Of a DNA stretch of 64,000 bases, positions 731 to 54,516 are shown piece by piece. Below the pieces are notes generated by a model, which was not told the DNA's origin, did no database searches, and saw nothing but the letters and a program-made list of their open reading frames with translations. The stretch covers positions 3,751,001-3,815,000 of the forward strand of contig NC_092568.1 of NCBI RefSeq assembly GCF_037975245.1, written 5' to 3'. This stretch comes from Apostichopus japonicus (taxonomy: Eukaryota; Echinodermata; Holothuroidea; Aspidochirotida; Stichopodidae). Position 1 is the stretch's first letter. Each line of letters starts with the position of its first letter. Both the position numbers and the translations under genes were made by a program.

Positions 731-3700
731 GTAAATATCACCAGCAATTTCCAAAAAATATGTTTAAATATTTTCATGTTTTTTTCTGTCTGTCGATGAG
801 TGTAGCAACATTTTTTTTCCTGTTTTTGTCTCAACCTGTTCGGATTCAACCATTAGGACCTCGTAAGGTTATCATTTATTGTATAAAATAATTTTGTTAC
901 ACTTTTTTTTATTTCAGTTAGACTCTGTAGAAGATCCTGCTATGATCGAAATGTCATGCCATCTAACTTTTACATACAAGAATTGTTACTGTTTTTCTAT
1001 TGCTTTTTTTTTTACTCTCTTGGAAAACTGTATAATGAATGCCAAATAAATTTCTTAATCATAATTAAGTTGCTCTACATTGTTTCTGCTGCCATTTAGC
1101 GTTGTGCGGTAGTCGGATTTACCACAACCGGTAGTGTTGCAACATGAATACCGGTATCGTAACTACAACCGGTATTTTCCTCAACTTTCATCTACGGTTC
1201 AAAGCACTTAGTTACGAGACTGTCAATGTCATACATTCAATATGCATAGCCTAGGCTATGTACATACTCTTACACGCACGTTTGTAAAAAAAAAATTAAA
1301 AAAATAACACGCTATATTAGGGCCTTTGTTTTTTAACATACACTTCCAAAAAGAAAAGCACAAACCTTGGAAAAAAGCAACCCACACCATCCTTCATTCA
1401 TACTCGACGTACGATATTAGATTAACACGTTCGCAAGTGGATTAAACTTGTAATCCGTACACAAACATAAATTGGGAGTTCCCCACTATTCCATGATATT
1501 GGAATAGGGCAACCCCTTCAAGTTCAAAAGTTCACAATGAAAAGTTTTCAACTATCAACAAGTCACCACGTGTTTGGAACTTCAGACAATTAGAATATAA
1601 CATAGGGGCTACCGAAATACGGGATTACAAACTACATACATAAAAATAGTACAGATTTATTTATATCGTTAATGGGCTGTTGTTTACTCCAGGAAATATA
1701 CTTTGAATACGTGCAATATCAATCTTTCGTACAAAAGTTCTTAAAAATTAAAAAAGTAGCGAAAGATAAATATAAATGACATCGTGGAACCCCCCCGCAT
1801 TAATAAACGAATCCATTTCATTACAGCAGCAAAATCTCAAGTACTGCACTTCTGTGTACCAGTACCGTATCCTAGGCTATAAAAATATACAGTCCTGTGC
1901 GAAGATGGATTTAAACTGGATATACTCCCTGCGGTTTTGGCTCAAAATTTATAAAATCGTTAAAATTATTATAACAAAATGAGGTGAAATGCATAAGGGT
2001 AAGATTTTGTACATGGGAACCTTGACAATCATCGTTTGAAGGAAGAATAAATAACGAAAACTTCAGAATAACTTTGAGGTCCCGTAACATGTTGAGCGCA
2101 AGTAACGTTCGATATTTATTGTAGCCTAGGTCCAAATTACTACGTGAAAAGTTGATTTGTTAATATATAGCCTAGTCTAGACCAGTACGTAAGTTGATCA
2201 GATATTATTCAAACTAAGAACACAGAAACCAGAAAAAATCGTGTTTTGTTTTCTTTATTTCAAATAGTAACACGTAGATATTTTTATTATGTACGGGATT
2301 CCCGGGAATGATACCGAAACGAATGTAATAACCGGTTGTTTTCCCAATACCAGTAGTAGTTACACATTGCACTGTGATCGGGATTAGTCAATACCGGGAT
2401 CTGGATACCGGGATTCACTTGACTACCGGGATCCCGCACAACCCTACTGCCATTTATTCCCCCCTTTTCCTTTTGTAATTTTTTCAGAGGATGGAGCGAC
2501 GAAGACCGACACCAAAAAGACGAAGAGCGTGCGATTTGCAGATGACAAAGATGTGGATCAGCTTCCACTGGAACAAGAACGGGATGTAGTCATCTACTCC
2601 AGCTTTCTGATTTCGAAGTATTTTCTGGAAGCCATTCTAGCAGGTGTCTTTCATGGACCCAAACTCTCGAGCGAGGAAACTGATGACTCTAAACAGACGG
2701 AAGCTGAATCGGGGCAGTTTTTGGACGAGTGTCTTACGAAGGTTGAATCGGGTATGGCAGCGTTGTATCCGTTGAGTTACAGAGTGGAGATACTTGAGAA
2801 TCTATTCTCCCTGCTGTTTCTGAGGTATGAGGACCTGTCAGATGGCAGGGACTTGCATGCTGACAGTGGAGAGGAGGAAGGACTTATCGAAGACGATCTG
2901 ACCAACCTCAGCATCACAAGTTTGGAAAGCCTTTCTAGTCCTGTTAAGGTCGCCGGTGCTAGCGACATGTTTGATTTACAGTCCAGACACGGCGCAATCT
3001 CTAGGAGACTCAATTTCACAGACGGAGCGTCGCAGAGTAAAAGTGACAAGATGGTGACAGAGTTGGATCTTTCCACCAAAGAAGCGTCTCTCGGTTTAGG
3101 TCCGATCAGTTCTTCGGTACAACACAAAACAAAGGTGAAGGATAACAGGAAGTCTGAGACACAAGATCAAGGGAATCAGAGCAGCGAAGCTTTCTTATTA
3201 GAGGCAAGTACGGGGAGACACATCAGCTCCGAGAGTCTGTCCCAACAGAGCCACCTCAGCACATCTCAAATAGGATTCCTCGTCAGTGAAACCGTCATGA
3301 AGAAACTTCTCATGACGTTGAAAAATTGCCTCACAGGAATCTCCAAAGAAAAGATGGCGCTGTACGGTATATCGGCGTACGACACCGTGCCTCATGAAAA
3401 GGACCGTCTCCTAAGATACTTGAACACCTCTGTAGCCTTACCGAATCTAGCACAGAGAATAGCAAGTCTAACGCAGTACATAAACGAAGCATGGTGGCGA
3501 TTTCAACTGGTATCGGAGAGCTCTGTCAGCTTGAGGTCAGGGTCCCGTAGGGAGAACTGGAGCAGCGACGAGGATTTGGAAAAGCTCGGAGATATCTTGC
3601 AGCTGGAATCGGCATCGCAGAAGAAAAAGGAAAAGAAAAGAAAGAGAAACAGTAGAGGCAAAAGAACATCTGGTGAGGATTTTAAAAGAAAAATAAGATC

Positions 3701-6700
3701 ACCTTACTTTCATCTTTATGGTATCTCCTAGCCATGTTGTTTAAGTTTATACTGTATTAAACACAGTTCTTTGATGTTCTCCTTCTCGCTAAAGTACACA
3801 CAGAAATATGTGACAGTTCTGATGATAAGAGCTATTAGCTTATTTCTTGTTATTTGAAGTAAGTTAACATTTCCTGATATATGTCAGTCTTGTAGACAAA
3901 AGTAGCCAACCTTGTTGTGGTAGGTGAAGTGCAACCTGCTCTCAGTCCCAGTGAAAGGAAGCCAGCATTCATAGTGGACTAATAATAAAAATAATATAAT
4001 AATAATAATAATAATAACAACAATAATAATAATATTATTAATAATAATAAAAATAATAATAATAAAAATAATAATAATGATAATAATAATAATGATAATA
4101 ATAATAATAATAATAATAACAACAACAACAATAATAATAATAAAAAACAACAATAATACGTAATACTAAAGACAGTACGGTGACGTCAAAACCACTGTGG
4201 GTGATGGTGGGGGAGGGGTAGTATAGGAATTTAGGCCCCCCATAGAATGATCAGAAAAACATTTTGTTACAAAAAAGGGTCTGCCTGCCTCCCCTAGAAA
4301 TGCATTGAACCTCCCTTACAAAGAGAAGTCCAGCTATGCCCGTGGTCCAGACTTACAGTCTAGGTTGTGACAGTGACATTTCATGGCTCTGAAGGTTCAG
4401 CATGGATACTTGTTATTAAGTCATTTTATAGCACCTCATCCTACCTCTATTACACATCCTTTCCACTCACCCATTTCCTATTATCCTCACACTTATATCC
4501 TGTAGGTGTTAGTAGCTCAGGCAGAGAAAGTGGCTCTCAGAGCACCCTTTCACAGTTTAGTGGGGAAAACAGACAGTCGACTGGTAAGTTTTCACTTCAT
4601 ACAGAGATTTCTTGGGTTACAATAGTGTTATTTTACTGTTGACAACTCATTATACTGGAACAAGGGAGAACCTAACATTAACGTACCTCATCAATAAATA
4701 TTAGGAACCATATCTTATTAATTGTTCTGTTATAAACCTTCAAGTGGTGATTAAACTGGAGGAGGATTTCTTAGTTTGATCGTATGCAAGCTCTTTTGAT
4801 TAAATATTCTCTAGGCTTGGGAAATTTACTGACCAAAGCAAAACAGAGTACTTTAATTTTGATGTGAAATGAAAATCTGCTAACCCCTCGGTCCAGTCAT
4901 TGCTGTGATTAGACATGGATTTAGTTCTCAGTTTATTGGTTTTATTATTGCAAAGCTATGGGTTTTGTTTGAGGCATTTAAATTGAATAACCCAGTATTT
5001 TGTATTTCATGAGGGGAGGAAGAATGCAGATGTGTTCACAAAATTGGTCATTTCTGTAATTAAACCACAAAGTTATAGTGTTGTAACAGATTTATTGCAG
5101 GAAAGTACCTCCCTGTTGTCAACTGATAACATCTCTAAAATGCTGACCATTAGAACAAACAGAGTTAAACCTTTCAAAGTCAAGATGATACAAAACTTAT
5201 CTTTATAACCTTAACCCTGCCAGATGGAGCCCATAGTATGAACGGCAGGGCAAGAGGTCACAGAAAGAGGCGCAGAAAGGTGCGAAGTGAAAGCCAACAG
5301 TTATCAGCTCCAGTTGACAGGAGCATTATTGCTAGAATGTTAGCCACAGATGATACTCTCCTAAAGATGTGTTTGAGAAAGGGAAACTATTCTCAGGCTG
5401 CTCAGGTAAGAAGTTTTACTTAGTTTCAAAAATAATAGTAAGTAGTGAATAAACAATAGATTTTTTTTTATTGACAAATAGTGAATTTTGTGAATAAACG
5501 AATGAGTGGTTGATTGATATTTTTAACCATTTTGGTTTAGTGTTAGGTTGACCCTTCTTATCTATCAGTAAATAAAGATATTAATATGTTTGTAAACTTG
5601 AAATAAAATAGAGATGAATTTAGGCAGAAATATTTGTACAAGAAGGCGCATTCCATCCTAGAATTTGAAAGAAAGTTAAAGCCCTCTGAGTCAAATGTCA
5701 GCTATAATTAGTTTTCATTACACAAAGACTTTGCTGGAAGAAGTAATTGCCAATCTACTAAGATTACCCACTTACCCATGAGATGATTAAAATGTATCAT
5801 AGCCTCATACATATAAATGATTTTGATATCTTTGTGATCATTGTGGGCTGGTGGACATGCAATTACACTTGCAAAATATTCTATGGTGTTAACAGATTTT
5901 GGGTATGTTGCATTTGTTAAGATTCTACTCATCAGAAAAGTTTTCATATTAAATTTTACGATATTCTTTGCCTGTTTTATCAATGTTTGACTCTCAGGTG
6001 GTGAAAATGTTTGGTATGAATGATAAGCCAGATGCAACTGAAGTACATTTCTGTCAGAGATGGGAGAAGGCAGTCCAACAACTTCAGACCATAGAAAATA
6101 AGTCCAGACTACAACAGACAAGGATTATTGGAAACTCACCGGGAAGTGTAAGGAGAATGGCAAACTTAGGAATCGCTTCCATGGCCGCTGCCGGTGTGAT
6201 GTCGACATCTGTGACAGGAATAGTCGACGTACTTCTAACATCGTCCAATCTTCCATCTCTTCCGGATCTCAAGTTGTCATCAGAAATCGGAGAACAGCAA
6301 CCTTCGACTTCATCCTCGACTATCAACGATCATTTTCGACAGTTGAGCATTCCCGTCATGATCATTCTTGATTTAGCTTGCAGCTTCTGTCTGTCGCAGC
6401 AGTCGTGCAAGGACCTGCTGGAGATGGCCGTTGGCCGTTTGCAGAAAGTTCAAGACGCACAACAACTACCAGATTCGGGGAGAGAGGACTCATCTTCACC
6501 GTTCGGGCTCTGTTCTTTCCTATCGAGAATCCATCAGTTGGTCAATTCGTGGAGCGAGATTTCTCTCCCAGGAGAACCCCAAACTGAGCTGAGTCAAACT
6601 GAATATTCTTTGAGGACACTTCTCACAGATTGCAGATGGCCTCTTGATTCCTCGTCTTTCAAGAACTCTCATAAGAGGTTGTCAGATATATCTGTTAAAG

Positions 6701-39178: not shown

Positions 39179-42100
39179 CTGTACAAGTGTTAAAGAGCAA
39201 AGCAAAAAAGGGTTGTGAATAAATTGCAACATGGCAAGATATTTCAGCGACAAAGTTATTATAGGGTGACCACTGTGCAAAAGAATCGAGGAAAGCGAGG
39301 AAACAAAATATATTTACCAAGAAAGTCTGATCTGACTCAAAAGTAGACCTTTTGGCTTTGATTTGAACTGGTGAACTTGACTCTTAACAAATTAGTTTTG
39401 CTGCGACCAGTATGCAGCAGAGTGGATTCTCTTTTACACTGTGGTCTCAATATCACAGACCAACAGTAGACTCGTTACAAGGCATAACATTTCTCATGAG
39501 ACTATTTACAAAGGTATTAATTTGTCACGAGACTCTTTACAAAGGAATTACATTTGTCATGACTCTTTACAAAGGAATTACATTTTTACAAAGGAATTAC
39601 ATTAGTCATGTAACAAGTGATGTCACTGCACTGCCTTCAAGGAGACCAGTTGGAGAGTTAGATACCACAACATAACATCACAAATATGTCAGTCAACCAG
39701 TTCACTTGTTTCAATACTTTTTCGTTTCAGTTTTCAACACCAAAATGTGAAGCCACAAATAAGGGGTCCATAAGAAGGGTTGTAGTACAACAACTAGGCT
39801 AAGAAATTACAGCTTTTTCATCACTGACATGTCAATTATCTCCCTGCAGAAAGTGCTCAAGGTCGTTAGATTCAACTGTTTCAAGAACCAGGTCTAAACT
39901 TTCTCAATTTCAGCCCACTTTGCTAAGATATGCCAGTGCATAAAAATATCTCCCGGCTAAAATCAAACCCCCAATTTTACTTTCCTTGAATTAATGTAAT
40001 AGGAACATTAACTTTGCATAATAGCTGGCAGAGAAATGGAAGTGCATTTTTTTTCTCTACTCGTGTACTGCAAAATCCACTGGCATTAGCTAGTAAACGG
40101 CTGGAATTTCCAAGTCTGAAAACCAACTGTCTACACAGAGACATCAAGTATAGCTTTGGTTTACTTTAAAAAAAAAAGAAGTTCCTCAGAAGACCTCACA
40201 TTTTTTGTTACTAAGTTTCTCTGTGAAATGGTATGCTACAGATAGTTAACCAACCAGAAGTATCTTACGATTGTTAGACTACATCTTTCTACAGATGATT
40301 AACCAACCATAAGTATCTTACGATTGTTAGACGACATCTTTCTACAGATAATTAACCAACCAGAAGTATCTTACGATTGTTAGACTACATCTTTCTACAG
40401 ATAATTAACCAACCAGAAGTATCTTACGATTGTTAGACTACATCTTTCTACAGATAATTAACCAACCAGAAGTATCTTACGATTGTAAGACTACATCTTT
40501 CTACAGATAATTGACCAACCAGAAGTATCTTACGATTGTTAGACTACATCTTTCTACAGATAATTAACCAACCAGAAGCATCTTATGATTGTTACGCTAC
40601 ATCTTGATCAAACCTACGAATGTCTTTTTTCTGTGGAAAGAGGATACAAAACATACCTCGTTTATCATATCTTCAATGATTGCACTTTGACAGACACTCC
40701 CTACGTGTACTGTAACCTGGAAGCCTTTCTTGATGCTGGTAGTATGGTACAGTACACAGATGTTAGCTTCAAACTCCATACAGCATGTAGGGTCTTCCCT
40801 TACCAGTACCATGCCCTGCAAAGATTAAAATCAAAAATAAGAATATTGCTGGGAGAAATCTAAGTTCTCTTAAGGGTTAAATGACAGGTTCAAAGGACGA
40901 CAGAAGATATATTCATATAAACATATTTCTTGTACCACTACCAGTGGTCAGTTTGATAAAACAAGGCTAGTATATTTAACATGTACTGGGAATTAATGGT
41001 CTCATTGTGCCTTTCACAAAGAGTCCAGTCAACATTGCTATAACATTTCAACAATGCATGAATGTGATTTGTGGAACACGCAAAGGAAAATATATTTTTA
41101 CGAAAAATATAGAACTTTGGAAATTCTTAACAATATCAACAATTCTGGGAGGTGCCTGGAAAGACACTGAATGAGCTATATTACTTACTAGATAATTGCT
41201 TGTCATTCAGCCTCTGAAGAAGATCCTACTAGGATCGAAATGTCAGGCCCACTTACTTTTACACATGCTAATTGCTTAAATACAAATAAAAGCTTAACGG
41301 AAACAATAGATCAAACGAACATCAAGAATACAACATTGTAGATTAGTAGGAAATGTTGCTTATGGATTACTATAACAAATGACATGATTTTCTTTTAACA
41401 AATTGCAAGGCTTTGTGAGTTCATGATTGACCCAAGAGATCAAAAGATAGCCTTGGCAATTAACAGCCAGTAAAGGTAGGGTGGGATTACATTAGGAACC
41501 TCTTATGAACAGGTTTTTTTTCTACAAAACATTTGATATCATGAAAAATAGGACAAAATGGGGGAAAGAAGGCTAACTACATCTAATTTATTAGATTAAT
41601 TAGATAAAAGAGAAAGAATAATTATTAACTATAAAATTTCATAAAACAAACTCATTTTCATCAGCATCCAATCACTGATAAAAAAACTTACATTTAGTTG
41701 AAAAAAAATATACCTCGATCCCCAGCAAGGTTTCAAATCTGAAGCTCCACAGTGCTATTGACTCTTACATACAACAAACAGCATAAGAGAGAGTGACCAA
41801 AGAATTCTTACTTTTCTTAAGGGAAATTCTTCCCATTCCCCTAATGCTAAGGTAGCAGCTTGACCCGGCATCACTACACGACATTTACTTCTATTCCTGT
41901 GAATGCTTTGAAACTGGACTTTCTTGAAATTCCCCTCTTCACTGGGACCTAGCAGAAGAGTAGAGTCTTCTTGTATGGAACCTCTGATGGAAGAAAAACA
42001 ACAACAAAATACTGAATGACAATTATTCCTCAGGGAAAGACCAGGTCGGGTCAAGAATTCCGACATAAAAGCAAAGGATATTATTTTTGGTATTGAAGGT

Positions 42101-45100: not shown

Positions 45101-48100
45101 ATTTAATAGTAAAGCGTAGAGGCACCATGTTATACATCATATACGTATCTTGCAGCCACAGTAAGTGGTGATACATATTATTGTACTATAAACAAAATTC
45201 TTAACATACTAAAACACCTATTGGGGCAGTAATGTAATAAACTTCATCAGTAGAAAAAACATTCTGTATTGGCATATTTACATGGCAGGTTTCATTGATT
45301 TACAAAGAAAGATTGCTAAATATTTGACCTGAGTAAATGGTTAGGAGACAACATTACATTGAATCTAATTTGACTCTTCTATAATATCTAGTTGATTCAT
45401 TTTAAAACCGTCATAACCCTTTCAATCCTATTGAAAAGATATTTTTATCATATTTTCCTGTCTAGGATTATTTATGACACTTCTCTGTGTTAACTTTGAA
45501 CTTTAAAAGAATATTTCTCTGCGATTAATCAAAACTCTGTAATTTAGAGTTTTGTCAAAATAAATTTCTCCGAATATCTGTTTGTGGAACATTACACTTA
45601 ATTATGTACATGAATCAAAGTTTCAAAATATGCTAAATATCTAAAAAAGAAAAACACAAACTTTCTATATTTGATAACCAAATTCACTTTAAAGCTCTAG
45701 TTTCTGTTTATTACATCAAAGCAGCATTTCATTTGACAGTTTATAGTCTTTTCGATTTCATTTCTCTCTGAGGATATAAATTTATTAAATATGAATCTTT
45801 ACCTCCCCTTTACTGTTGAAACCAAGGACTTCGTGACTAACGCTGGATGTGTGACCAGATTCAATTTCATGTAAATGCCGGAAGAGGTTCAATCTGGCCC
45901 TCCCTTGTCCGTTGTCTTTTTCACCCTGGGTCAGAACTCCCAGTAAAGTGCTCTTTCCTGATTCCACGTTTCCTAGGACTGCTAATCGAAGATCAATGTA
46001 CTATAAGTAGAGGGAAATGAAAAAGGAAACTGTTAAAACAAAGCTATAACAGTTAATGACGTAACAACACTGACTTAATACAATGTACCTATTAAACACA
46101 ATATACTTATTGACTTCTAGAGATGTACTGTATGCACTGTGGTCTATCGAGGGCAAAGCTCTCCCAGGAACAACCATACAGTGTGTAAGTTTTGTCTTCT
46201 TGCTGCAATAAGGGTATATACAATGAAACACCAGTTGATAACCAGCTAATCTTGAGACAAAATTCATGGAAATTCTGCAGTCAGAAGCTACTAAATGTTT
46301 CATATTAGGAAATATTCTTTCTAAAAGTGGAGAGAGAAATATAAAATCCTCCTCCCAGTCAATACTTGACATACTGTAAAGTGGTAAGCTAACTGTTCAA
46401 AGTATTAGAACTTAATATTAACAAAAGAATCTCAAATGGGCTGAGAGGAAATATGAAAGGAAGATATTGTCCATCAGCCAAGTGAATTACAAGCATATTT
46501 TGATTTCATTCTAGGCCAAAATCAAACAATGAGTCCATTCAAGATGATAACATAAAAGGAAAACTCACAACAGAAATATTTCTATCTTACTGTAGATTAA
46601 GAATTCTACAATGTTCAGACAATTGGATTTATATAACAAGTTTAAATATGGTTTTACCTGTTGATCATCTGGTACTCTCCTAACCAGAACTTCACAAGCT
46701 GTTTTATTAAGTCCATTATATGATTCTACTGTGGTCCTTCTGACTTCTACTGTGGTGGCTCCAAGTCTAAAAAGACAAAAAGCCAGATGGGCAATTCCAT
46801 GGTAACGGAAGGACATTGGGACTAATTTTCTGACATTTAAACAAGTATATCATGAATATCCCCATTAATTACAACAAATAATTGTCATCATTGACTAGCT
46901 ATAACTACGTATTTCAATTTTCACATATTTTTTTTCCACAAACCCTTCCTATTTTTGAAATATGAATATTAATGAGGTCGGTAACGGAAAGACGGCAAAC
47001 GGACAAGGGTTTTCACAGGTCTTGAGTTTATTGTAAAACTCTGTGAATTCTATGGAGTAATATTATTTTAGAGGTGAGAAATGTTATCACAATACTGTTT
47101 CCTATACTGTACCACTTTCCATTCTGAAATTATTGCTTTGGTTTTCTAGAAATATTGTGCTAATTAAAGTTAAATTTGGTAACGGAAGGACGGTAACGGA
47201 AGGACAAAATGTCCACTCAATTACAGTGTGCAAAGAAGAGTATATCACAATGTTGACACAATAATATAATTGTCAGAACCAACATTCCAATGTGAACTAT
47301 AACAATGTATTGACCATCAAAAGCAAAAATATGGAAGTTATTTCTAATTATCAACTAATCACATTATGTTAATTAACTGTAGGTCAATAACTGAAAAAGT
47401 GAAACTGAAAAAGTTGAAGCAACTATCACTACTGTATATTAAACTGAATTTATTCTAAAATGATAATTAACTGAAGCTGAAGTCCTACTACTTTAGAAAT
47501 AATCACCTGCTTATTAATGGGAAGTGATTGTATCTAAAAGTACAAACAAACAGTAGTTTTTAACTGTAAATTTGTTTTTTCTACATGAGTATCTAGAAAC
47601 AATATTTCAGTTATCAACTACAGTATCACATGGAGGCAGGTAACCAAGGGTTCATTTATTTCATTCCTAAAGCAGAGGTTCCTGATCTTCAATTCTTTGT
47701 TAATAATGGGAGCATAATTTTAGCATAATTTTGATGTCACACACGTGACCAAAATAACGCAAAAGTTTTCATAAAAAGTAACTGATGTGCCTTATGATGT
47801 CCACACTTGATATGCAACCGTTCTTGGTGCACACTGTTAGTTCTGCAAAATATCCAGTCAAGTAATTATTCCTACAATGAATTCATAGCCTCTTATTAGT
47901 CCTCACACACATGACCGATGATCACGTGTGTGACATTTGTGCATGAAAATGCAGAATGTCATACACGTGACCCGACAATGTCACACACGTGACCCTCCAA
48001 ATCATGGCAGTAAAACTGTATTAAAGTAATTCCTATGGAATATCAACAGTGCTGTTCTGTGGTCATTACTAGAGTCAACATTTGCACTGAAATTTGCATA

Positions 48101-51100
48101 CGCACAATGAAAATTCAGAATGTCACACACGTTACCCAACAATGTCACACACGTGACCAGATTTTTCTTACCTTATGTAGTATTATGCTAATTTTAAGAA
48201 GTGAAATATTGAGGTGAAATGTCTTGTAAGAATAGAAACACATTAAGGTAGATTCATGAGAAATTAGGGTTATTCAGCCCTGTTAGAAACTGAGGAATTT
48301 GCCAATGTTTTTTTGAGCAAAATAGCCAGTTTCATTTCACGTCACACACATGACCGACCTTTATATGACCTCTGCCAGCACATGAATGTTGTGATTTTGG
48401 CTAAGCAATATATGGTTTTGTAAAATAGTCCCCTAGTGCATACTTAAGTACTAAAACCAACCTTACTTTCTTTACCTAAAAGTAGTTACTTAGTGGTAAA
48501 GTGCAAATCTCCTCATTTTTCAGTCACACACGTGACCGAGAATGGCTCTACCATGGAATTGCCCCTTACAGTAGTATAGATATAAACATCACTCTCAGAA
48601 TCAACAACTCCCACAGGATGCTATATACAATATATATATGTATGCATGCAATGATATTTACTTTTAATCATAGGCAAATGACTCAATTATCTGACTGGAA
48701 AAACAAAATTGTCCTTCCGTTACTGTCCTTCCGTTACCAAAATGGTAACGGAAAGACAGGTTTTAATCAATCATAATGAACAAATGAAGAGGACCAGGGT
48801 GAAACTAATTATTTCATTTTGTTGGCCAATCTAAACTTGCTTTGAAGATGAACTTTCATTTTAATCTTGCTGCAACTTTTCCTGAAAAACTAAAAAAAGT
48901 TATATTTTCGGTAACGGAAGGACATTTCAAATGGCAAAAATACCGAAGGGCACTGAAGCGGAACCAATGAGGAAAAGGGGCGAAAATATTATCCATTCAG
49001 TTTTCCATGATCTATACTCTCACATGGTAGTGGCTGATATCATTCATATACTCGCTATCAATAGCAGTGACCAATAGTTTTTATTACCAATCATCCAATT
49101 TTCTGTATCAACTCATGAATATTCAATTACCCATATATTTTCATTCCAAAATGCATGAAAATTGCATTTCTGAACCTGATTCTGGAAAATATGGACTCTT
49201 AGCTTTCATATGACACCAAATTTACTATTGTCACACACTTTTAATTTTTTGGGTATCATGTCCACTTTCTCATGGAATTGCCCAGATGCAAAAATTAAGA
49301 TCAATTTTCGGATGTCCTAACTCCTAATGGAACATTTACCTCGATTAAAATACAACACACGTTTTGAAATAAAAATGTCAAAGTTGACTTAATGGTGTCG
49401 AGTATGACAGGTGATCCATACTCAACAGTAATACTATCCAGAGTATGAATCAGACCATTAAATTTAAAATATACTTTTAAAATTTTCAGAAGTTTGGCAA
49501 CATTGTACTTGAAGCAGAATAGCACCCATCTGTCATTTGATTATATGATATTGAAAAACAAACAAGCTCTTCATTATCAATCCATCTGTTTTGATATTCT
49601 CAGACTCTCACTAATACCACTGAGTATAGTGTAAAAGATAAACCTTTTCTTTATCAGTAGTTTCAGCTGCAATATCCTCTGAAGTCAGAGTTCGAAGAAA
49701 GTAACAAATATATTGTTCACAAATACCATGAACAGGGCACAGTTAGCACTTTCACAGATCACTTGAAGGGTCAAAGTCCATATCAGATGATAGGGTTAAG
49801 TCAGAGTCCAAACCTATCTTTAATTGAACTTTTTAAACATATTTCAGTTGATAATTTGCAAGCAACTCAAAACAATTCAAAGTTAGTAACAAAACCACAG
49901 GCAACCTATATTTACAAAATTATCGGAAAGATTGTTAGTGCTGTTTACCAATCAGATGGTTAGTTTTCATTTGACTCAAGTTTTAAATATAAAAAAGTAT
50001 GTATGTGACAATTTTGTACTCAGAAACCAGTTAAAAGTACAGAACTTATGACATTTTGTTAAAGTTTGCTAATTAAGATTAACATGATGAAATAATCTAC
50101 AAATGTCACATCAATTGTAATATGACAGTTTGCAGAAAAAGAAACTGCTTTTACTATGAGCTCTGGCAATAGTCCCTATAAAGAATTCTCAGAGACATTT
50201 CTTTCTTGAAGTTTACACTGAGCTTATTTGAGCTTGAATGTGGCACATTTTGCATTTATTATTGACATTGTGTTGTTACACACACATTTACTCATTTACA
50301 TTTCCCTACCAATATATTATATTTGACCTCCAACAAACACAATAGGTTCCATATGCTCCTCAAAGGGAAGCCACATATCACTTATGAGGTCTGGCTACTA
50401 TTGCTCTCTGCTTCTTGAGTAATAGTGTTTACGATGTATCCTGTGTTGAACATCAGTTGACCTTGAGATTCCCCACATAATGCATACTCATCAATCCATT
50501 ACAACTTATCATTGACTTCATTAGCTCTGTTCATGATAGGCCAGAGATATAGTACTAATGAATTTCATACACTGGCCTCTTATGAACACAGATGACCTTC
50601 GACCTCCCATCAAAAAGAATAGGATTATGGGGTTCATCAAAAGGAAGTCACATGTCAAGTATGAGATCTGGTGACCTTTAACCTCCTTGAGATATTGCAT
50701 AACTTACAAGGTAATCCTACTGTACTAGAGATGTTAGTTGAACTTTAAACTCTTTGGTAGTTTGTAGTTTGTTAGGTAGTGTACTGTAGATTGTTTTCAT
50801 GTCATGAAACAACCTTCCATTGACAAAAATATACACGTTTTGCCTGCTTACTGCATGTGTATTCATGAGATTATAGTGCTGAAAGTTGTTCACACTGACC
50901 TGAAATGAGCTTTCATCTTTTTCCCCTAAAATATGGTTTGTGTCATCATAACTATGGTAAGCCACATGCTTGTCAAATATGAGGTCAACTAAAGCTTGCT
51001 ATCTCGACATATATGCAGTGATTACATACAAATGCACTTACACCTAAGCCAACTTGACTGCATGAATACCTTAATTGCTTTGCATAAGGGAAACTGTACA

Positions 51101-53864: not shown

Positions 53865-54516
53865 ATAGGCGTAGGAGGCGGGGGGGGGGGGGTTCTGGGG
53901 GCTGCAGCATCGCAAGTTCCCAACCAAATTTTTTGGTGAAAATTCGGGCAATATGCTGAGAACTTTTCGGCGGCTACTGAAAGAAGAAAAATTTGCAGTG
54001 TTTTTCATTTTTTTTTTGTGAAAATGCGGGCAATATGCTGAGAATTTTTCGGGCACCTTCTGAAAGAAGAAAAATTTGCAGTGTTTTTCATTTTTTTTGT
54101 GAAATTTCGGGCAATATGCTGAGAATTTTTCGGGCACCAACTGAAAGAAGGATCATTTGCAATGTGTTTTTCAATGGTTAAACTGATATTATTAATATCG
54201 TTATAATTGTAACGACTTCCCCAATAATTATAACCAATATGGACGGGTAATAACAGGAAAATATAACCAAAATTTTTCGTGTGCTCCGCGCACATTCAAC
54301 ATCTTAATGTGCATATCATATAGGCATTCATCAGTTATTACATCACATGCCAATATATGCCAATATATTACATCACATGCCAATAACCGATGAATGCCTA
54401 TATGATATGCACATTAAGATGTTGAACGAGCGCTCCGAAGCGCGCTAAAAATTTTGGTTATATTTTTCGGGCAAGTCGTTGCAGCCCCCCAAAACAAATT
54501 AGGCTCCTACGCCTAT
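53865..54516. mobile_element. 652-bp non-autonomous DNA element with a large palindrome
   Basis: Inverted ends ataggcgtaggag at left and ctcctacgcctat at right, flanked by the 10-bp direct repeat gacccctccc (53855-53864 and 54517-54526). Inside are three 80-bp subrepeats (53936-54176) sharing gggcaatatgctgagaa and a palindrome with arms at about 54260-54339 and 54382-54465. The arms share caacatcttaatgtgcatat. No coding sequence. A 10-bp duplication fits Mutator-like elements best, but the ends are short. Confidence 0.8.
53936..54176. repeat. Three 80-bp subrepeats inside the 652-bp element
   Basis: Each unit holds cgggcaatatgctgagaa, a variable cggcggctactgaaagaag or gggcaccttctgaaagaag, and a tract gcagtgtttttcattttt. 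Confidence 0.88.

Follow-up and report, generated by a model that had tools for sequence, protein, structure and literature searches.

Sola transposons encode a DDD transposase, generate 4-bp target site duplications (TSDs), span 2-9 kb, and end in terminal inverted repeats (TIRs) of 11 to 1124 bp (PMC10741241). The slime-mould Sola2 elements DFa and PPa combine 4-bp TSDs and 12-21-bp TIRs with chimeric bodies, in which one part is common and the rest differs, and they carry Fanzor genes and have AWWT or AT-rich TSDs (PMC3627910). For assignment to one superfamily, the Repbase rule asks for equal TSD length and at most one mismatch in terminal positions 1-11 (PMC4455052). Here, we describe a 2495-bp element in a 64,000-nt stretch of the Apostichopus japonicus genome (NC_092568.1, positions 3,751,001 to 3,815,000, forward strand; hereafter the window), lying at window positions 46789..49283 on the plus strand. 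With good confidence, we read it as a non-autonomous DNA transposon of the cut-and-paste type, probably a Sola element, that relatives in the same genome mobilise through their transposase, that is chimeric in its body, and that carries asymmetric arrays of short motif sites toward its two ends.

A sequence-only reading of the window had proposed a mobile element of unrecognised family at 46790-49282, with inverted ends set between two copies of cagatg and a non-coding interior holding two motif families of about eight copies each. The inverted ends are real, forming an exact 13-bp TIR (GGGCAATTCCATG at the left, CATGGAATTGCCC at the right). By itself the window gives a modest signal, one 13-bp TIR with a 4-bp TSD pair, which likewise appears in 1/20 resampled windows; the status of the element is settled by other copies in the genome. 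That reading staked itself on such copies sharing the same ends, and querying the 672-Mb genome with the element (146 candidates, 40 scored, copy counts being lower bounds) returned at least 80 matches, among them the window copy and, at full length, at least three others (98, 95, and 93%). The interior is indeed non-coding, the longest stop-to-stop frame touching it being 96 aa, and its open reading frames were rejected as coding sequence. Inside the element, the motif GGTAACGGAAGGAC occurs eight times and GTCACACACGTGACC nine times, with neither found elsewhere in the 64-kb window at up to two mismatches. These counts bear out the proposed numbers, but the two motifs do not belong to one interior. 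Copies that we call A-only cover query positions 1-761 and 1788-2493, while at least 25 B-only copies cover query 764 to 1671-1762, and because these match separate parts of the query, the two motif families represent two elements; a single element with two motif systems was therefore rejected. The GGTAACGGAAGGAC sites are confined to the A parts of the window element and the GTCACACACGTGACC sites to its B part. When 20 of the 25 B-only matches were fetched (L014-L033), B was complete in 17/20, as an element of ~1174 bp with its own TIR and ends GGGCCATTCTC.

The TSDs define the edges. Among 12 two-ended A copies, an exact 4-bp duplication is found at the GGGC/GCCC edge in 10, compared with 1/132 when flanks are swapped between copies as a control, and an exact one of 5-8 bp in 0/12 (L011 and L012, whose left end is not intact, are left out). 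The 6-bp register fits just 4/12 A copies and was rejected; cagatg resolves into the 4-bp AGAT, the terminal G/C of the element itself, and a chance match. Because the 4-bp TSD is exact in 10/12 copies at the GGGC/GCCC edge, the element boundary moves outward by one base from the position first proposed, with the same edges recurring in other copies, and the family register places the two AGAT copies at 46785..46788 and 49284..49287. The B family has an exact 4-bp TSD in 13/17 scorable copies (control 1/272; L016, L030, and L033, which have lost an end, are not counted), and the C family, a gene-bearing relative described below, in 4/4. Exact 4-bp TSDs also flank the relatives L050, L051, L052, L077, and L079, and L080 matches at 3/4 bases; the flanks of L059 and L076 show no matching duplication. 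The remaining two A copies count against the reading: in L004 3/4 bases match, and L003 has no TSD.

An empty site had been named as the proof of mobility. Ten exact-TSD flank pairs were joined after removal of the element and one TSD copy and searched against the genome (129 candidates, 40 scored). For 4/10 of the pairs, those of L001 (a chimeric copy), L005, L007, and L010, the genome contains an uninterrupted stretch that matches the joined flanks at 95-99%, in a scoring of which base-level inspection was not part. For the insertion site of the window copy itself, there was no paralogue among the matches listed. The A copies L010, L007, and L001 lie within other many-copy repeats, which is why empty sites are visible for them.

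The body of the window element is read in the order A left / B / inverted A tip / A right. The A left half (end 1, 46789..47550, plus strand) matches A-only copies at ~95%. It is followed on the same strand by the B segment (47553..48548), a second transposon lacking ~190 bp at its start and terminating in GGCTC where intact B copies have GGCCC. Then comes an inverted A left tip, TACCATGGAATTGCCC, on the minus strand at 48549..48564, the inverted internal copy of the left end that had already been noticed, and finally the A right half (end 2, 48565..49283, plus strand). This order is common to four copies, and because they share it, the chimera has moved as a unit. A simple nested insertion of B into A would account for the junction of the B right end with an A tip, where a plausible 4-bp target lies. 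Nevertheless, such an event is highly improbable, as the same internal junctions occur in four copies at separate places, 3/4 of these have their own exact TSD, their flanks differ, which also argues against duplicated segments, and the shared structure lacks ~190 bp of the B left end in all of them.

The history of the unit-mobile chimera can be pieced together from the junctions of other copies. Seven A copies (L004-L010) run through CTTAGT into the right half, and in L012 an inverted A left end of 436 bp abuts that CTTA. In L003, the most divergent chimeric copy, the B end ...GGCCC is followed by TACC ATGGAATTGCCC, the inverted A tip, and then by CTTAGTAG. The simplest history we infer is as follows. 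An A fragment would have inserted into an A element at CTTA (48565-48568 in the window), B would then have inserted into the tip of that fragment at TACC, its putative 4-bp target, and a deletion would have joined A position 761 to the B interior, removing ~190 bp of B. The resulting chimera would retain both A ends and thus move on. It weighs against this order that the far side of both presumed insertions is absent from every copy, so that neither duplication is checkable. The nine GTCACACACGTGACC-type sites of the B segment, within 47736..48537 (starts 47736, 47902, 47920 on the minus strand, 47958, 47980, 48122, 48144, 48341, and 48523), would be cargo in this element, out of register with its ends.

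A longer relative that encodes a transposase, which the sequence-only reading expected, exists. Seven longer A copies (L004-L010) keep the last exon of a transposase gene, of 121 codons with TGA in two of them, and this exon shares 45% identity (E 3.6e-20) with the protein of the C family (L046-L049). The tips of A and C both begin GGGCAATTCCA, with the first 11 terminal bases in common, and since both also have a 4-bp TSD, the Repbase rule places them in the same superfamily. The C protein as query gave 78 genome matches. An alignment of eight open frames (674-930 aa, counted from stop to stop) has 32 invariant columns. Among these are the aspartates D410, D490, and D531, which are present in 8/8 and are likely to have a catalytic role. 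Ends were located for 2/8 of these open-frame relatives, L050 and L051; in L053-L058 none were found by GGG-type tips, a 9-mer pair in L053 being disbelieved. Gene-bearing copies with both ends measure ~2.6-4.6 kb and have TIRs of 11-18 bp, or ~630 bp in L052, while non-autonomous copies are shorter (1174 bp for B, 1122 bp for the A copy L013). L052 (positions 951-5563) has ends GGGTCATTCC with the tip GGGTCATTCCATG; its TSD is ATCT, its frame of 880 codons is broken by one stop, and its inverted arms of ~630 bp were traced by exact 11-mers. It represents another type of end within the superfamily. A further relative at 49% identity, family G (L059), whose tips match those of A for 12-14 bases, lies on a contig filed as a bacterial metagenome-assembled genome (Cli_8) that is largely animal-type transposon and is probably host contamination. 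A single-sequence fold of the L059 core reached a pLDDT of 38 and was unused, and viral contigs yielded no transposase relative.

Which superfamily this transposase represents was judged by description. The element had been called one of unrecognised family, and to that extent the call stands: searches of Pfam, NCBIfam, and the PDB with the transposases gave nothing above cut-off or convincing. Kolobok, Sola3, and piggyBac target TTAA, which is the duplicated sequence in 1/23 exact A and B TSDs. Ginger, hAT, Mutator, and Tc1/mariner are among the superfamilies with Pfam models, and no such family scored above cut-off for the scanned proteins, a scan that divergent members may escape. A non-Sola superfamily, whether already described or not yet, would agree with this lack of database relatives, and with the AWWT form of slime-mould Sola2 being seen in only 2/23 exact TSDs. 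Yet the 4-bp TSD, the three invariant aspartates, the element size, and the TIRs that range from short to long are found in A and its relatives and fit the Sola description (PMC10741241), which leaves a non-Sola origin rather doubtful. On this agreement, together with the tips and the transposase signature, the A family is probably Sola.

The motif sites themselves keep a nearly fixed layout. In the window element, the GGTAACGGAAGGAC sites of end 1 are all on the plus strand, at 46801..46814, 46980..46993, 47178..47191, and 47192..47205, or 13, 192, 390, and 404 nt from the tip. Those of end 2 lie at 48711..48724 and 48725..48738 on the minus strand and at 48744..48757 and 48910..48923 on the plus strand, or 560, 546, 540, and 374 nt from the right tip. 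Ten families with different motifs hold near-equal positions, nine of them at both ends and one (J) at one end, the layout being ~13, 190, 380, and 400 nt from the tip at end 1 and ~375, 540, 555, and 575 nt at end 2. The families beyond A, B, and C are D (L040), E (L050), F (L051), G (L059), H (L077), I (L079), and J (L080), and the motifs of A-G are GGTAACGGAAGGAC, GGTCACGTGTGTGAC, GGTTACAGTGTGAC, GGTAACTCGCAT, GTGACGGACGTAC, CGTCACGTAAGTCA, and GTGTTGGACGTAC, respectively. At end 1, the sites of A recur in B at 12, 192, 388, and 410, in C at 13, 193, 390, and 404, in D at 13, 191, 378, and 393, in E at 183, 372, and 393 with a diverged site near 14, in F at 12, 192, 380, and 402, and in G at 14, 183, 371, and 392. 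At end 2 of A-G, a site at 374-386 is followed by two to four between 519 and 618. Once the layout had been set, five more loci, H, I, and J among them, were chosen solely by transposase similarity; of the other two, L076 is related to H but decayed, and L078 is related to E but truncated. In H, 8/8 sites are in place as identical 15-mers (end 1: 13, 191, 379, 394; end 2: 375, 540, 557, 577), with a TSD of ATAT. In I, no GGGCNATTCC tip fitted, and the ends were located from the array, whereupon a 14-bp TIR, GGGCCAAAGCCAAA, and a TSD of ATAT/ATAT were found (end 1: 27, 192, 387, 401; end 2: 206, 386, 538, 557).

One 10-mer recurs 7-8 times in each of A-F, compared with at most 3-4 in any of 100 resamplings; the most-repeated 10-mer reaches 5 in G, against 4 when resampled, and 4 in L052, against 5. 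Motif copies number 8-9 per element, against a resampled mean of at most 0.35. Across the nine non-A families, 32/38 end-1 sites and 25/37 end-2 sites fall within 15 nt of the A positions, a level that 0/20000 rotations reach; the motifs in this count were hand-defined with 2-3 mismatches allowed, and the B entries at 557 and 579 under end 1 in fact belong to end 2, this element being short. Within A, the eight sites are kept in all 12 copies, including L013, which is reduced to 1122 bp by internal deletion, and at end 1 the sites vary by 1.1%, compared with 4.0% in the rest of that end (6/2000 rotations). In the D family, a frequent one-base tip variant with tips GGGCGATTCCATGGTAACTCGCAT (L060-L063) has the full end-1 layout in 4/4 fetched copies. 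End 1 lies beyond the 3′ side of the gene in 7/8 gene-bearing array families (A, C, E, G, H, I, and J); in F (element at 1751-5570 of the reverse complement of L051), the transposase frame is reversed relative to the end arrays. There is also a hint of helical phasing, in that the end-1 distances between sites 1 and 2 and sites 2 and 3 cluster modulo 10.5 (Rayleigh p ~0.009 each), while distances 2-4, 1-4, and 3-4 show no clustering (0.07-0.09). This rests on nine families that are not independent, with J left out and the first sites of E and G set by hand.

Equal positions could be leftover homology from one ancestral element, with no function for the spacing. The transposases are related by descent, with 21-29% identity to L050, the motifs are alike between E and G and between D and H, and end-2 DNA is alignable above shuffles in 9/45 family pairs, with D/H alignable at end 1 as well. 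At end 1, though, D/H is the 1/45 pair that aligns above the best of 40 shuffles, and the other 44/45 are unalignable, yet 32/38 sites stay within ~15 nt, when DNA that free to change should have gained or lost bases too. Moreover, all sites of an element change in step, and those of A end 1 vary less than their surroundings, which makes mere ancestry an improbable account. The motifs could instead be sites for host proteins, such as transcription, silencing, or nucleosome-positioning factors. The spacing of ~165-200 nt resembles the nucleosome repeat, and the B motif CACACACGTGAC contains CACGTG, a common host motif. A shared host factor, however, would not give a motif that varies among ten families, of which nine share a genome, and site 1, starting 12-14 nt from the tip, overlaps the terminal repeat in several families, so that we regard host-protein sites as quite unlikely. 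The most economical account of the motifs is that they are putative binding sites of each family's own transposase, and the equal positions suggest, from sequence comparison, that the moving enzyme recognises a fixed layout.

Several results weigh against the array reading. L052 bears a gene and long TIRs but no array. In J, end 1 fits at 3/3 sites (25, 195, 405) and end 2 is displaced, with 0/5 (168, 331, 344, 500, 519) within 15 nt, while in E the first site has diverged beyond the limit of 2 mismatches. Among 21 tips scored at 2 mismatches (16 by tip pattern and five earlier-fetched neighbours, L075 repeating the place of L040), the end-1 layout is full in 6, partial in 7, and absent in 8; L068 has sites at 13, 175, 403, 431, and 445, and L074 at 13, 143, and 333. 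The motifs were chosen partly by eye, the sites of A end 2 (160/2000 rotations) and of B (59/2000; copies L016, L027, L030, and L033 left out) exceed their surroundings in conservation only weakly, and because end-2 DNA aligns in the nine pairs noted above, part of the end-2 layout may be plain homology.

Taking the transposase-site reading forward, each end would carry about four predicted sites of 12-15 nt bound by the element's own transposase, and, the two layouts being asymmetric, pairing would require one end of each type. From one family to the next, the geometry would stay and the letters of the sites change. We hold as an evenly balanced proposition that this amounts to a conserved ruler, two arrays of about four sites reaching ~575 nt inward, whose site sequence is rewritten in all eight places at once between families. 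If so, new families would arise by changed letters within a kept layout, and incompatible families could live side by side in a genome and even bear one another's arrays as inert cargo. In essence, the window element provides a case of two transposon families in one genome, one bearing the array of the other. Should the layout be functional, it provides a sequence-independent signature by which elements and ends can be found despite having almost no sequence in common, as in I, where it already located the ends, and it poses a testable question: how specificity shifts jointly in a DNA-binding protein and in eight scattered sites.

The remaining features of the window concern its surroundings. 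The host gene is on the minus strand, and one of its exons matches GTP_EFTU (E 2.7e-7), which is consistent with GTPBP1/2; the sequence-only reading had named GTPBP2. Tandem repeats of 53 bp x7 (40236-40605) and 81 bp x3 (53929-54173) are also present.

How do these arrays compare with known systems? Tn7 and phage Mu have several transposase sites per end, arranged differently at the two ends, an analogy of working with no relationship claimed. There, the sites lie within ~150-200 bp of the tip, whereas here they extend out to ~575 nt. Ac/Ds, En/Spm, and P elements likewise hold multiple short transposase-binding motifs inside their tips; motif position is not known to be conserved in them across families with a changed motif. 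A literature search with the terminal letters returned nothing on transposons among the matches listed, and no Sola description of a fixed layout with a changing motif was found in literature listings, which miss most subscription papers. End asymmetry is described for Tn7-like elements (PMC13370975). With Sola, compared by description in its accessible part, the elements here share three invariant aspartates, a 4-bp TSD, gene-bearing lengths of ~2.6-4.6 kb, and TIRs of 11-18 or ~630 bp, but the fixed-layout arrays go unmentioned in that part (PMC10741241). The slime-mould Sola2 elements are alike in their 4-bp TSDs, short TIRs, and chimeric bodies; they differ in carrying Fanzor genes, where the element here carries a second non-coding transposon as cargo and has looser TSDs. 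The chimera itself is of a kind already known, while the conserved layout with a changing motif is, as far as those listings show, undescribed for Sola.

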